DNA of 64,000 nucleotides from Aquimarina brevivitae. Its GTDB lineage: Bacteria > Bacteroidota > Bacteroidia > Flavobacteriales > Flavobacteriaceae. How positions within the stretch are numbered: the first letter of the stretch is position 1; each line of letters opens with the position of its first letter. Below the pieces are notes generated by a model. It saw nothing but the letters and a program-made list of their open reading frames with translations. It did no database searches and had not been told where the DNA came from. Positions 42,313 through 61,327 of this stretch are shown here, piece by piece. Made by a program: the position numbers and the translations under genes. The stretch covers positions 25,031 to 89,030 of the forward strand of contig NZ_SGXE01000004.1 of the NCBI RefSeq assembly GCF_004216895.1, in the 5' to 3' direction.

Positions 42313-42342
42313 AAAAAAGGCTCCCAAAAGGGAGCCTTTTTT
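42313..42342. terminator. bidirectional terminator
   Basis: A 13-bp perfect stem (AAAAAAGGCTCCC 42313-42325 with GGGAGCCTTTTTT 42330-42342), loop AAAA, with T runs on both strands. It serves the small secreted gene and the end of the aromatic operon, overlapping the stop of the DAHP synthase gene. Confidence 0.9.
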
Positions 42343-43423
42343 ATGATCGTGCTACTTTTTTCTGATGGTTAATAGATTCTTGGTGTATCGCTTTAAAAAT
42401 TCTCAAAATAAACTCTTCGCTCAACCCGTGTTCTTCTCCTTCGAGTATCATCTTACCCAAAATTTCATTCCAGCGTTTAGATTGAAGTATAGCAACATTT
42501 TGTTTTGCTTTTACCTTACCAATTTCATCCGAAATCTTCATACGATTAGACAATACATCAATCAACTTGTGGTCAATAACATCAATCTGAGCACGTAACT
42601 CACTTAATGCCTTTTCGTATGCTTCATTGTCTCCAACCTCTTTTCTGATTTTTAAATCTTTCATATACTGAATTAAGGTTTTAGGCTCGATTTGTTGTTT
42701 GGCATCACTCCATGCATTATCCGGATCATAATGGGTTTCGACAATTAATCCATCAAAATTTAAATCTAATGCGGTTTGAGAAAGATCAAAAATTAAATCT
42801 CTTCTACCAGCGATGTGCGAAGGGTCTAGAATTAATGGTAGATCCGGAAATCTATTTTGCAAATCGATAGGTATTTGCCATTCTGGGATATTTCGATACT
42901 TTGTTTTTTGATAAGTAGAAAAACCTCTATGAATAACCCCTAAGTTTTTTACATCTGCAGTATAGAAACGTTCTACAGCTCCCAACCATAGAGATAAATC
43001 TGGATTTATTGGATTTTTAATCAATACTGGATTATCAATTCCTTTGCACGCATCCGCAATATCCTGAACTATAAAAGGAGACACTGTACTTCTAGCTCCT
43101 ATCCAAAGCACATCCACTCCGTGATTCAGCGCTAATTCCACATGGTGGGGATTAGCGACTTCGGTGGCAATTTTCATCCCAGTCTCTTCTTTGGCACGTT
43201 GCAACCATTTTAACCCTAAAGCGCCAACTCCTTCAAAATTACCAGGTCGTGTTCTTGGTTTCCAAATTCCAGCTCTAAGTACAGTAGCATCGGAGTTTTT
43301 GAGCTGATGCGCTATGGTTAGTACTTGGTCTTCTGTTTCTGCGCTGCAAGGACCTGCAATTACTAAAGGATGATCCAAATTATAGTTATCTAACCATCCT
43401 CTTAATTCTTTTTTATTTTCCAT
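42341..43423 (-). CDS. Bifunctional DAHP synthase / chorismate mutase
   Basis: First enzyme of the shikimate pathway fused to chorismate mutase. Residues about 1-262 are a KDO8P-synthase-like DAHP synthase (VIAGPCSAE, LRAGIWKPRTRPGNFEG, DPSHIAGRR). Residues about 265-355 are an AroQ-type chorismate mutase (LRAQIDVIDHKLIDVLSNRMKISDEIG). C-terminal fusions of this type are known in Bacteroidota. It is the last gene of the Phe/Tyr operon, 25 bp after tyrA. The mutase domain often confers feedback inhibition by prephenate or chorismate. Confidence 0.95.
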   Translation of the reverse strand: MENKKELRGWLDNYNLDHPLVIAGPCSAETEDQVLTIAHQLKNSDATVLRAGIWKPRTRPGNFEGVGALGLKWLQRAKEETGMKIATEVANPHHVELALNHGVDVLWIGARSTVSPFIVQDIADACKGIDNPVLIKNPINPDLSLWLGAVERFYTADVKNLGVIHRGFSTYQKTKYRNIPEWQIPIDLQNRFPDLPLILDPSHIAGRRDLIFDLSQTALDLNFDGLIVETHYDPDNAWSDAKQQIEPKTLIQYMKDLKIRKEVGDNEAYEKALSELRAQIDVIDHKLIDVLSNRMKISDEIGKVKAKQNVAILQSKRWNEILGKMILEGEEHGLSEEFILRIFKAIHQESINHQKKVARS

Positions 43424-43448: not shown

Positions 43449-44297
43449 TTAAGCGATACCTTTTAAGATTGATTTTATGTAATTTGTTTCTTTCATTTCT
43501 TGAAATATTTTAGAGAAGTCATTATGCTCCATCAACTCTTTAAATTGGGTTAAGTTTGCTATGTACTCTTCTAAGGATTCAATTACATTTTCTTTGTTCT
43601 GTTCAAATATTGGGGCCCACATAGCTGGTGAGCTTTTGGCTAATCGTACGGTAGAAGCAAAACCACTGCCTGCCATATCAAAAATATCACGTTCATTCTT
43701 TTCCTTCTCAATTACTGTTTTACCTAACATAAAGGAACTGATATGGGACAAATGTGAAACGTATGCAATATGCTTATCATGAGATTCTGGATCCATATAC
43801 CGAATACGCATACCTAATCGATTAAATATATTCATGGCCTTTTCCTGTAACTTGAAAGCAGTCTTTTCTACTTCGCAAATAATATTAGTTTTATCCCTAA
43901 ACAGATTTGCGATAGCAGCTTCAGGTCCAGAGAATTCGGTTCCGGCGATTGGATGTGTTGCTAAATAGTTTCTTCTATTTTTATGCTTGCTCACAACTTT
44001 ACATAATTGTTCTTTTGTAGAACTAACATCAAACACTAAACAGTGCTCATTAACCTCATCTAACACCTTGGGTAATTCAGCAACCGTAACATCAACAGGT
44101 ATGGCAATAATTACCACATCAGCTTCAGACAGCGAGGAATATGTAGATTTTTCATCTATAACACCTAAAGAAAGCGATTTGTCTAAATGTTCTTCATTTT
44201 TATCTATACCGTACACCTTTGCCTCGTTAAAAGCAGCTTTGATATCTATCGCCATAGACCCCCCAATATGCCCTATTCCTATTACAAATACGTTCAT
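43449..44297 (-). CDS. tyrA: Prephenate dehydrogenase
   Basis: NAD(P)-dependent oxidative decarboxylase that makes 4-hydroxyphenylpyruvate for tyrosine. N-terminal Rossmann loop GIGHIGGSMAIDIK, then VFDVSSTKEQL and HPIAGTEFSGPEAA, the classical TyrA signatures. At 282 residues there is no fused ACT or mutase domain. It overlaps the aminotransferase stop by 4 bp. Confidence 0.95.
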   Translation of the reverse strand: MNVFVIGIGHIGGSMAIDIKAAFNEAKVYGIDKNEEHLDKSLSLGVIDEKSTYSSLSEADVVIIAIPVDVTVAELPKVLDEVNEHCLVFDVSSTKEQLCKVVSKHKNRRNYLATHPIAGTEFSGPEAAIANLFRDKTNIICEVEKTAFKLQEKAMNIFNRLGMRIRYMDPESHDKHIAYVSHLSHISSFMLGKTVIEKEKNERDIFDMAGSGFASTVRLAKSSPAMWAPIFEQNKENVIESLEEYIANLTQFKELMEHNDFSKIFQEMKETNYIKSILKGIA

Positions 44298-45451
44298 ACA
44301 CTTACTTTTAGTCGATTCATAGCTTGCTGAATTTCAACTTCTGTTACACAAAGTGAAAATCGGATATAACCTTTGCCATTGGCTCCAAATATATCTCCAG
44401 GAGCTATAAAAATATGATGCTCCTTAAGTAAACCATCGATATATGCTATGGAATCCTCACCATCGGGTAATTTAGCCCACACAAACATTCCTTTTGCGTT
44501 TTTATCAAAAGAACATCCTAATGAGGTTGCTATTTCCCAAATTAAATCTCTTCTTTTATTATAAATTGTATTAATCTCGTTGAACCAACTCTTATCCATT
44601 TTTAAGGCCGCTATAGCTCCTTTTTGAATGCCTAGAAACATACCACTATCCATATTACTCTTTACTTTGAGAATGGCATTAATCATTTTACTTCCTCCAC
44701 TAACCATACCAACTCTCCAACCCGCCATGTTAAATGTTTTACTTAGTGAATTTAATTCTAAAGCTACTTCCTTAGCGCCTGGGACTGCTAAAATGCTTGC
44801 AGGAGATTCATTAAGAATAAAGCTATAGGGGTTATCTTTAACTAACAAAATATTATGTTTCTTGGCAAAATTGACCAGTTTAGTAAACAATTGATTATTT
44901 CCTGCTGCTCCTGTGGGCATGTGTGGGTAATTGACCCACATTATTTTGACTCTGGATAAGTCTCGTTTTTCTAATTCAGTAAAATCAGGCTCCCAATTAA
45001 GTGCTGGTTTTAAATCATAATATACCGGATGAGCACCTACTAGTTTCGTAACCGAAGTATAAGTAGGATAACCAGGATCAGGAACCAATACTTCATCTCC
45101 GGGATTTAAATACGCTAAAGAAATATGCATGATTCCTTCTTTAGAACCCATCAAAGGAAGTATTTCTGTTTCTGGGTTGAGCTGCACATTATAATATTTG
45201 GTATAAAAATTAGCAATTGCCTTTCTTAACTCAGGCACACCTTGGTAACTCTGGTACTTGTGTACACCCTTATCACCGATTACATCTTTCATTGCCTCCA
45301 ATACCTCGGCGGGTGGTTCCAGATCAGGACTACCAATCGCCATATTAATAACCGGTTTCCCTGCGGCAATAAGAGCTCTTACTTCTCTAAGCTTAGTAGA
45401 AAAGTAATATTCTTCAACCGTTTCTAATCGCTTTGCAGTTGTAATTGTCAT
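44294..45451 (-). CDS. Class I/II aminotransferase, probably aromatic
   Basis: A 385-residue PLP-dependent fold-type I aminotransferase. The sequence contains NMAIGSPDLEPP, VPDPGYPTYTS, the catalytic-lysine region ELNSLSKTFNMAGWRVG and FIAPGDIFGANGKGYIRFSLC. Related enzymes include LL-diaminopimelate and aspartate aminotransferases, but the position between pheA and tyrA, overlapping both by 4 bp, argues for transamination of phenylpyruvate and hydroxyphenylpyruvate. Substrate is inference. Confidence 0.9.
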   Translation of the reverse strand: MTITTAKRLETVEEYYFSTKLREVRALIAAGKPVINMAIGSPDLEPPAEVLEAMKDVIGDKGVHKYQSYQGVPELRKAIANFYTKYYNVQLNPETEILPLMGSKEGIMHISLAYLNPGDEVLVPDPGYPTYTSVTKLVGAHPVYYDLKPALNWEPDFTELEKRDLSRVKIMWVNYPHMPTGAAGNNQLFTKLVNFAKKHNILLVKDNPYSFILNESPASILAVPGAKEVALELNSLSKTFNMAGWRVGMVSGGSKMINAILKVKSNMDSGMFLGIQKGAIAALKMDKSWFNEINTIYNKRRDLIWEIATSLGCSFDKNAKGMFVWAKLPDGEDSIAYIDGLLKEHHIFIAPGDIFGANGKGYIRFSLCVTEVEIQQAMNRLKVSV

Positions 45452-46332
45452 GGATTCATGTTTTTATATTCGCCAAGAACTTTTAGTTCCAACGCCATAA
45501 TTTCTAAAATCGATAGTGCTTTACCAAAATCCTGATAGCTATCGAAAGTAACATCAACAAAGAAGGCATACTTCCAGGGCTTATCAATAACTGGTAAGGA
45601 CTGAATTTTGGTTAGATTCAATTTACAATCACTCATTACATTTAAAACTGTCGCCAAACTACCCCTTTTATGATCCGTTAAAAACTTTAAAGAAGCCTTA
45701 TTTATAGTGTCGGTATGATGGTTTAACTTATGTTTACTTAACATAAAAAAGCGCGTGGTATTTGAGGTAATTGTCTGTATATCTGAAGCGATGATATCCA
45801 AACCATAAATAGCTGCAGCTGGTTTACCAGCTATAGCAGCAATACCCTTCAGTTTTTGCTGCTGTATTTGTTTTGCTACCGCTGCTGTATCCGAGGTTTC
45901 TACTAATTTAATATGTGGATATTTTCTTAAAAACTCTTTGCATTGTAGCAACGCCATCGGATGAGACCATACCTCTTGTATGGTTTCTAAGGTTTCGCCT
46001 GGGGACACCATCAAACAATGATGAATCGGCAAAAAGAACTCTCCATTGATCACCAGATTATGTTCGTCGATATAAGCATAATTAGGTATGATGGAACCTG
46101 CTATTGAATTTTCAATTGCCATTACGCCATCCGTACTTTTCCCAGTTTCTAAACTAAGCACCAAATCTCTAAAAGACAAGCATTCATCGACCTTAACATC
46201 CTTACCAAAAAAGGACTGCGCTACACAATGATGATATGAACCTTTGATTCCTTGTATCGCAACGATCAACTCCCTATTTGTCGATGTGTATTCTGATTGC
46301 TCTAAACGATGTATTTGATTTTCTTGTTTCAC
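45448..46332 (-). CDS. pheA: Prephenate dehydratase
   Basis: Converts prephenate to phenylpyruvate. The catalytic TRF motif is T193-R194-F195, in SNTTRFF. The C-terminal ACT domain runs from about 212. The usual Phe-binding ESRP motif is QSLP at 244-247, and the first Phe-site motif GALV is GSLA at 224. Allosteric inhibition by phenylalanine may be altered. The start is GTG at 46332; an in-frame stop lies just upstream and there is no ATG. First gene of the operon, about 50 nt after an attenuator terminator. Confidence 0.95.
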   Translation of the reverse strand: MKQENQIHRLEQSEYTSTNRELIVAIQGIKGSYHHCVAQSFFGKDVKVDECLSFRDLVLSLETGKSTDGVMAIENSIAGSIIPNYAYIDEHNLVINGEFFLPIHHCLMVSPGETLETIQEVWSHPMALLQCKEFLRKYPHIKLVETSDTAAVAKQIQQQKLKGIAAIAGKPAAAIYGLDIIASDIQTITSNTTRFFMLSKHKLNHHTDTINKASLKFLTDHKRGSLATVLNVMSDCKLNLTKIQSLPVIDKPWKYAFFVDVTFDSYQDFGKALSILEIMALELKVLGEYKNMNP

Positions 46333-46383: not shown

Positions 46384-46412
46384 AAAAAAAAATCCCGATT
46401 TGCATCGGGATT
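46384..46412 (-). terminator. attenuator terminator before pheA
   Basis: On the minus strand AATCCCGAT (46404-46412), loop GCAA, ATCGGGATT (46391-46399), followed by seven T at 46384-46390. The 9-bp perfect stem and U run are a textbook intrinsic terminator 50 bp before the pheA start. Its 5' arm can also pair with an upstream antiterminator segment. Confidence 0.92.
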
Positions 46413-46439
46413 CAACTATTTATATCTTAAAATATGTAT

Positions 46440-46517
46440 TTACATAGCAATCCCGATCCTACTTTTATAATAAAAGAAGATAAAATAAAATCGGTTCCAA
46501 GTAAATACGTTATTCAT
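46440..46517 (-). CDS. Phe/Tyr leader peptide (25 aa)
   Basis: ATG at 46517, stop TAA at 46440. The peptide reads MNNVFTWNRFYFIFFYYK followed by SRIGIAM. Of 25 residues, nine are aromatic (F5, W7, F10, Y11, F12, F14, F15, Y16, Y17), nearly all in one block that precedes and overlaps RNA segment 1. An in-frame stop lies upstream. A short ORF with Phe and Tyr codon runs, immediately before an antiterminator/terminator and a Phe/Tyr operon, is the defining feature of a leader peptide. It has no known function beyond the act of translation. Confidence 0.9.
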   Translation of the reverse strand: MNNVFTWNRFYFIFFYYKSRIGIAM

Positions 46518-46765
46518 GTCGTTACTATTAATATGGCTAAGTTAGACAAAAGCGGTGATTTTAAAAATCTTTTTATAGCTTTTTCAATATTTCTTTAAAT
46601 AATAATGATTTTGCCAAAAAAAATGAAGATTTAATGGTTTATCATAATTAAAAACACCGTTTAACTAGTAAGTCTTTATTATTTCAAACACTAACAAACG
46701 TTTGTATAAGATAGTAAATGAAGAGGTTACACTAAAAAAGAGTGAGAATACAAGGCTTAAAAAGC

Positions 46766-60953: not shown

Positions 60954-60995
60954 ATCAAGAAAGAATATAAGGAAAGTGCGAGACTTCAGTTTATA

Positions 60996-61117
60996 TTATC
61001 TGTTCTCTATGGTTAGAGATAGAATGTAGCACCTTCTTAAAAAACTAAGTATTGAAACCGTTTCATTAAGGGTTGCTAAGGCTTCTAAGGGTCTAGTCCC
61101 TCCACCTTTCTTGATAA
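60996..61117 (-). promoter_or_regulatory. SAM-I (S-box) riboswitch
   Basis: On the minus strand the conserved S-box core is readable in order: P1 TTATC (61113-61117) and GATAA (60996-61000), AAGAAAGGTGGAGGGAC, CCTTAGAAGCCTTAGCAACC, then AAGGTGCTAC, and P4 CTCTA/TAGAG. A TGAAAC/GTTTCA hairpin caps P3. It lies 90 nt upstream of metH, in the position expected for feedback control of methionine synthesis. The remainder of 61118-61327 has no clear promoter. Confidence 0.93.
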
Positions 61118-61327
61118 CACATTTTTTTATAAGAACTTAGTAAATAACATTTACTAATATTACACAAAGAAATGACATAGACTAGTGTTATGCAAAAAAA
61201 TAGTAAAAAACTTAAAGTAATCTTACGTGTTTTCTCGTGTTAAGTCGTCATATAGCTAAATAATATAATAATTTTAGTTGTATCGCTTTAATTACTTAAT
61301 TGAATTTACATCAACCTTAATATTTTA

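Follow-up and report, generated by a model that had tools for sequence, protein, structure and literature searches.

A short aromatic open reading frame (ORF) and a switchable terminator precede pheA on the minus strand of the window (the whole stretch of DNA analyzed here, 64,000 nucleotides from Aquimarina brevivitae), and the preliminary description of this stretch was exact in its observation of both parts. We read this leader as a ribosome-mediated transcription attenuator that would sense charged tRNA-Phe and tRNA-Tyr and thereby control the pheA-aminotransferase-tyrA-DAHP synthase/chorismate mutase operon; judged from sequence comparison, we put the probability of this reading at about 90%. 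The same interpretation had been offered in the preliminary description, and it is supported by our analysis.

Anatomy of the leader and its operon

The leader ORF has the 25 codons and the nine aromatic residues (5 Phe, 3 Tyr, and 1 Trp, with Phe/Tyr in 8/25 codons) that had been described, and it lies within the interval described (Table 1). Between this ORF and the first gene of the operon lies an intrinsic terminator (46384-46412) that is composed of two complementary 9-nt arms, a GCAA loop, and seven T. As ATCGGGATT is present both in segment 4 and at the end of the ORF, segment 3 can pair with either of them. Segments 2, 3, and 4 and the run of seven U stand as previously given, but the CCGAT motif that had been taken for the whole of segment 1 is only the start of a longer arm with 13 instead of five pairs: in the predicted 1:2 hairpin, the Lys-Ser-Arg-Ile codons are matched by CCGA plus the first Phe/Tyr codons, and segment 1 is consequently larger than had been written. 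Folding of the 161-nt region yields -36 kcal/mol, compared with -24.2 +/- 3.6 kcal/mol in dinucleotide shuffles (z -3.27; 1/200 as good). The exact terminator stem has a single copy in the 3.88-Mb genome, and two more places resemble it at 2 mismatches.

Table 1. Coordinates of the leader elements and of the downstream genes in the window.
Feature	Position	Strand	Basis or remark
-7-like promoter element, TAACTTAG	46537..46544	-	variant of the Bacteroidetes TAnnTTTG box
Leader peptide ORF, MNNVFTWNRFYFIFFYYKSRIGIAM, with stop codon	46440..46517 (46517 = start)	-	reading frame and homologous leaders
Control region, codons 10-17 (FYFIFFYY)	46467..46490	-	Phe/Tyr kept in 40 Aquimarina-type leaders
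Segment 1, 5' arm of the 1:2 hairpin	46482..46494	-	predicted fold
3' arm of the 1:2 hairpin, overlaps segment 2	46453..46465	-	predicted fold
Segment 2, ATCGGGATT, within the ORF right before the stop codon	46449..46457	-	
Segment 3, AATCCCGAT, partner of 2 (antiterminator) or 4 (terminator)	46404..46412	-	
GCAA loop between segments 3 and 4	46400-46403	-	
Segment 4, ATCGGGATT, terminator 3' arm	46391..46399	-	
U tract (seven T) of the intrinsic terminator	46384..46390	-	
pheA, prephenate dehydratase, GTG start as listed	45448..46332	-	NCBIfam prephenate dehydratase, 190.9 bits; cut-off 219 not reached
Aminotransferase	44294..45451	-	best NCBIfam model, 417.8 bits; cut-off 507 not reached
tyrA, prephenate dehydrogenase	43449..44297	-	NF006307, 382.6 bits; above cut-off 295
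DAHP synthase/chorismate mutase	42341..43423	-	NF009239, 199.3 bits; cut-off 279 not reached

The four operon genes are located on the same strand as the leader and are nearly contiguous. All four had been named in the preliminary description and were found again by profile searches, in which only the prephenate dehydrogenase passes its curated NCBIfam cut-off and the other three match clearly, though below theirs. Most relatives align with the pheA product only from about residue 19-24 onward when the GTG at 46332 on the minus strand is taken as its start, and the true start of pheA may therefore be positioned further in. Elsewhere in the window, an ordinary SAM riboswitch is present at 60993-61120 on the minus strand (76.1 bits against a gathering score of 44.4).

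The ORF, its arms, and their conservation, covariation, and spacing lend themselves to a regulatory model of stalling, termination, and response to starvation. With an ample supply of both Phe and Tyr, the ribosome would reach the stop codon and cover segment 2, the 3:4 terminator would form, and RNA polymerase would stop. When either Phe or Tyr runs short, the ribosome would stall in codons 10-17, break the 1:2 hairpin, and leave segment 2 free; the 2:3 helix would then form before segment 4 has been made, and transcription would continue. Were no ribosome present, 1:2 and 3:4 should both form, and transcription would stop as well.

Phylogenetic distribution and chance controls

A pheA scan of close relatives yielded 66 loci, mostly from Aquimarina, together with some from Polaribacter, Formosa, and Leeuwenhoekiella. 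The leader ORF and the terminator were each found in 65/66 of them, and a later caller recovered both parts together in 65/66; the exception, L007, possesses this leader too, starting from GTG. Among 40 Aquimarina-type leaders that are 25 codons long, positions with Phe/Tyr hold their residue with some exchange between TTT and TTC and between TAT and TAC, a constancy that is only modest evidence because most of the other codons are invariant too.

The family was sampled with 149 genomes, one per genus, 130 of which carry pheA. In the 70 upstream regions examined for ORF and terminator among these 130, both parts were present in 67 and the ORF in 68; in the two regions where no ORF had been seen (L116 and L135), the leader is located 524 and 907 nt upstream of pheA. 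In locus L241 (genome G128), an ORF of ~200 codons (MKTIPFEPSKYYHFFNRGNNKENIF...), which may resemble REP-associated transposases, lies between leader and pheA, which are 907 nt apart. The preliminary description had held that homologous upstream regions devoid of both ORF and arms would speak against its reading. We built a covariance model (R1) from 50 leaders and ran it over the 149 family genomes; in 127/130 of the pheA-bearing genomes it gave a match on the strand of pheA and no more than 1 kb ahead of this gene, with a median gap of 21 nt. The condition named as a refutation was not borne out. Among the three misses, G092 has a leader on inspection; none was seen on inspection upstream of pheA in G023 and G035, the latter with an upstream contig of 376 nt only. 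Nineteen family genomes have no pheA match, and seven of these contain an R1 match at E 0.01 or better, which is strong in three of them (G033, G042, and G116). The leader of G116 is found at the end of a contig, and its pheA may thus simply be off that contig.

Outside the family, the order-level set comprised 23 regions, a 24th (L161) being truncated and left out. A strict caller detected ORF plus terminator in 11/23 of these regions, leaving 12/23 without the pair: L148 has the ORF alone, and neither part was found in leader-like form in five f5 regions, in L191 (f5, with a pheA near 30% identical), in four f16 genomes, and in L154. The f16 genomes (L151, L152, L153, and L156; about 0.6 Mb each) have kept pheA with no leader plus terminator. 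Among the class-level regions outside the order, 14/23 possess both parts and 9/23 are without the full leader, including the partial cases L184 and L185 (ORF only) and L182 (terminator only). Pfam PF00800 and our pheA search agree in placing pheA in the same 26/99 class genomes, and most of the sampled class members are consequently without this gene. In L166, three aromatic ORF-terminator units follow each other in a row, between about 460 and 50 nt ahead of pheA; the picked ORF is that of the farthest unit, and the two nearer ones contain Phe and no Tyr.

How often such an arrangement arises by chance was gauged with a caller that looks for an aromatic short ORF and a nearby terminator. It fires in 96/119 pheA upstream regions, compared with 3/119 of their reverse complements and 0/119 of their mononucleotide shuffles, and in just 3/411 other, random windows of the same loci. 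L142 (a duplicate), L161 (truncated), and L191 (no leader) had been dropped before the 119 regions were counted. When all 189 upstream stretches are considered, with duplicates such as L001/L070 and L103/L142 among them, both parts are present in 163. Within the A. brevivitae genome, R1 scores the true leader at 79.4 bits and the next match begins at 35.3 bits; each of the first two matches after the true leader (L245 and L246) is a terminator that no aromatic ORF accompanies.

Competing helices, ribosome geometry, and rival explanations

The arms of the leader covary as both the 2:3 and the 3:4 pairing require, in keeping with the attenuator anatomy of mutually competing helices proposed in the preliminary description. 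The mean best-helix score between the 3' part of the ORF and its own arm 3 is 17.6 (97 leaders, one of them a duplicate), compared with 13.2 when the arms of 30 other leaders are used and 10.7 with mononucleotide-shuffled sequence. This ranking of own arms over other arms over shuffled sequence, together with a covarying GC/AT position, indicates that the competing antiterminator 2:3 is kept by compensatory change. At that arm position, the 96 leaders show GC in 49, AT in 41, GT in 5, and TT in 1 for the 2:3 pairing, and CG in 49, TA in 27, and TG in 20 for the 3:4 pairing; 26 distinct arm cores exist among these 96 leaders. A comparison of pairing in 2:3, 81% with own and 66.6% with permuted partners, is biased because each helix had been picked as the best one for its own sequence; the helix-score test is the fairer one, since every comparison in it is free to choose its helix. 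RNAalifold, applied to 50 leaders, recovers the terminator with nine consensus pairs and double changes in 7/9 of them. In the MAFFT alignment, segment 2 is shifted by one column between clades. The reading frame across segment 2 varies by clade (I-G-I, N-E-T-L, and T-G-L-L), which is to be expected if the RNA pairing, and not the end of the peptide, is what has been kept.

The predicted folds can be arranged according to the position of the ribosome. In its ribosome-free state, the ORF region stands out by its stability (mean z -2.8; z < -2 in 71/96, with 20 shuffles each), and in 91/96 leaders half or more of the bases of segment 2 are paired upstream. With a ribosome placed at the stop codon, the 3:4 helix forms in 96/96, but the presence of a terminator was an entry requirement for this set. 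When the ribosome is stalled in the middle of the control run and segment 4 has not yet been made, 2:3 is formed in 93/96, a weak test to which we attach little weight since shuffled upstream sequence already gives 57%. Once segment 4 is included in the stalled state, the minimum-energy fold contains 3:4 in 64/96 and 2:3 in 32/96 leaders; antitermination would hence have to be kinetic, with 2:3 forming first.

The spacing of the parts agrees with such a switch. Segment 2 starts at a median of 13 nt before the stop codon. Under an assumed ribosome footprint, at least 70% of the Phe/Tyr codons lie at least 13 nt upstream of segment 2 in 95/96 leaders, and in 82/96 a ribosome halted at the stop codon would cover half or more of segment 2, so that segment 2 is predicted to be free when the ribosome stalls at the control codons and covered when it has reached the stop codon. 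An SD-like 4-mer ahead of the leader start was seen in 1/96 leaders, which confirms for the leaders the SD-poor initiation that had been raised as a possibility. A -7-like TANNTTAG is located no more than 45 nt upstream of the leader start in 53/96, compared with 3.6 expected by shuffling; the TAnnTTTG consensus of the Bacteroidetes -7 box is given in PMC9723704.

Three other explanations deserve consideration. The same arms could be switched by an arrest peptide: the ribosome would be stalled by the growing aromatic peptide itself, a free aromatic amino acid perhaps serving as its ligand as in TnaC. Such a mechanism could account for the near invariance of the Aquimarina-type leader peptide and for the strong retention of its aromatic runs; across genera, however, the order, number, and flanks of the Phe, Tyr, and Trp residues vary widely while the richness in cognate residues stays, and codon content varies with the part of the pathway that survives (see below). 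We consider an arrest peptide improbable. It is more doubtful still that the element is a small RNA or a terminator that acts constitutively, whose hairpin merely ends a short transcript and whose ORF is incidental. The aromatic ORF with its matching segment 2 accompanies the hairpin upstream of pheA throughout the family, and the rarity of ORF-terminator pairs in random windows likewise argues against such a view, even if the hairpin and U tract resemble an ordinary intrinsic terminator, similar stems exist elsewhere in the genome, and 20 of the R1 matches listed are not beside pheA, several of them being terminators without an aromatic ORF.

Least probable of the three, in our judgment, is sensing that is independent of translation, through direct binding of tRNA or of a protein, or Rho-dependent attenuation on the same leader. 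The leader RNA is indeed structured without translation, as such sensing would have it, but neither the T-box nor any other Rfam family attains its threshold there, what has been conserved is an ORF that carries cognate codons, and the terminator belongs to the intrinsic and not to the Rho type.

Control codons, the surviving pathway, and known leaders

The preliminary description had the leader respond to both Phe and Tyr, and among the diverse picked ORFs both residues are present in 96/96 and Trp in 62; Phe and Tyr account for 35% of all residues. Three family genomes without a pheA or tyrA match depart from this pattern. In G033 (L230 2669-3896), a lone gene for DAHP synthase/chorismate mutase follows an R1 match, and the leader, MTNNNTWWSNSKFYLKR, carries tandem Trp and is followed by a terminator; its 2:3 pairing is weak and equalled by 23/200 shuffles. 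The leader of G042, MKNLNNTYYYYPILTRRIGQ, has four Tyr and no Phe, precedes a gene for a 244-aa biopterin-dependent aromatic amino acid hydroxylase, and shows good 2:3 pairing, with 2/200 shuffles reaching its score. Enzymes of this kind make Tyr from Phe. In the 82%-complete genome G089, the leader MKTNRIYTIYMYTFYHRWRAR stands ahead of a partly covered hydroxylase gene of the short type; 1/200 shuffles pairs 2:3 as well, and R1 does not match this leader. The codon content thus appears to differ with the surviving pathway in G033, G042, and G089, three cases that were noticed after the fact.

The Tyr-rich leaders before short hydroxylases in G042 and G089, two genomes without pheA or tyrA matches, have terminators and lie in L231 (2591-3478) and upstream of the hydroxylase gene in L251. 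The other genomes with a short-type hydroxylase (G004, G064, and G143), all of which carry pheA, have no such leader, and an aromatic ORF with a terminator was found in none of the 25 long-type hydroxylase loci that were fetched, one of which (L274) could not be framed. Among the amino acid loci of A. brevivitae itself, our inspection covered the stretches ahead of hisG, of two trpE-like genes, and of ilvD. Upstream of hisG (L218, contig C2), a His-rich leader-like ORF, MNTFFVHHHHSYSNAQAR, is followed by a strong terminator; as an attenuator this candidate was rejected, its 2:3 pairing being no better than chance (31/200 shuffles reach the score). The regions upstream of the two trpE-like genes and of ilvD contained nothing convincing.

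Collectively, we lean toward the view that the leader is an old, SD-less aromatic attenuator that exists class-wide where pheA has been kept, and whose control codons may have been re-aimed as the pathway erodes: toward Phe and Tyr normally, toward tandem Trp where only the DAHP synthase remains, and toward Tyr before an aromatic hydroxylase. Ribosome-mediated attenuation requires a ribosome close behind RNA polymerase. If our view holds, RNA polymerase and the leading ribosome would move in step in these bacteria, and a leader that works as its anatomy suggests would provide broad comparative evidence for such coordination where leaders nearly lack Shine-Dalgarno motifs. G033, G042, and G089 offer themselves as natural tests of the mechanism and lead to new predictions, for instance an aromatic amino acid hydroxylase under the control of tyrosine.

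Leader-peptide attenuation is a textbook class of mechanism. Phe_leader (RF01859), the pheL/pheA attenuator, combines a Phe-rich peptide with the logic of 1:2, 2:3, and 3:4 pairing and a terminator ahead of pheA, as does the leader in the window. The preliminary description had suggested a search against known leader families; when Rfam covariance models were run on the leader, no family reached its threshold, and the leader is thus an RNA element that can be modelled and that stands apart from the Rfam families at their thresholds. Phe_leader scores 17.1 bits in this case, its gathering score being 55, and the leader in the window differs from it by its added Tyr codons and by an operon that includes tyrA and the DAHP synthase gene. 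The best-scoring leader family on the minus strand, Trp_leader (RF00513), has the same general layout and remains far below its gathering score (21.6 bits against 41); the leader in the window has one Trp codon only. Bacteroid-trp is a trp leader, and the Rfam search reported no match to it (RF01692) in the window. Attenuators of some Bacteroidetes were reportedly covered in a comparative study by Vitreschak and colleagues in 2004. In the literature as far as consulted, RF01692 figures as a candidate cis-regulatory RNA of Bacteroidetes (PMC2864571), his attenuators are described for Firmicutes (PMC9413887), and long 5' UTRs with short ORFs are described for Bacteroides thetaiotaomicron, where the named example precedes a gene for a hypothetical protein and not an amino acid operon (PMC7366714).

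The closest counterpart comes from Flavobacterium psychrophilum, for which clues to leader-peptide attenuation before amino acid operons were published in 2021, together with a structured 5' element upstream of pheA that is conserved in other genera and has no Rfam match (PMC9723704). This element shares its gene and its bacterial family with the leader studied here, and the remark of the preliminary description that it knew of little on such attenuators in Flavobacteriia needs amending, as clues to them were already on record. The main account of the F. psychrophilum element gives no arms, codons, covariation, or wider distribution, some of which its supplement may hold. Our analysis adds to it a model at the level of the arms, a near-universal presence in the family and a spread through the class, covariation of the antiterminator, an SD-less context, and codon differences that appear to follow the pathway.
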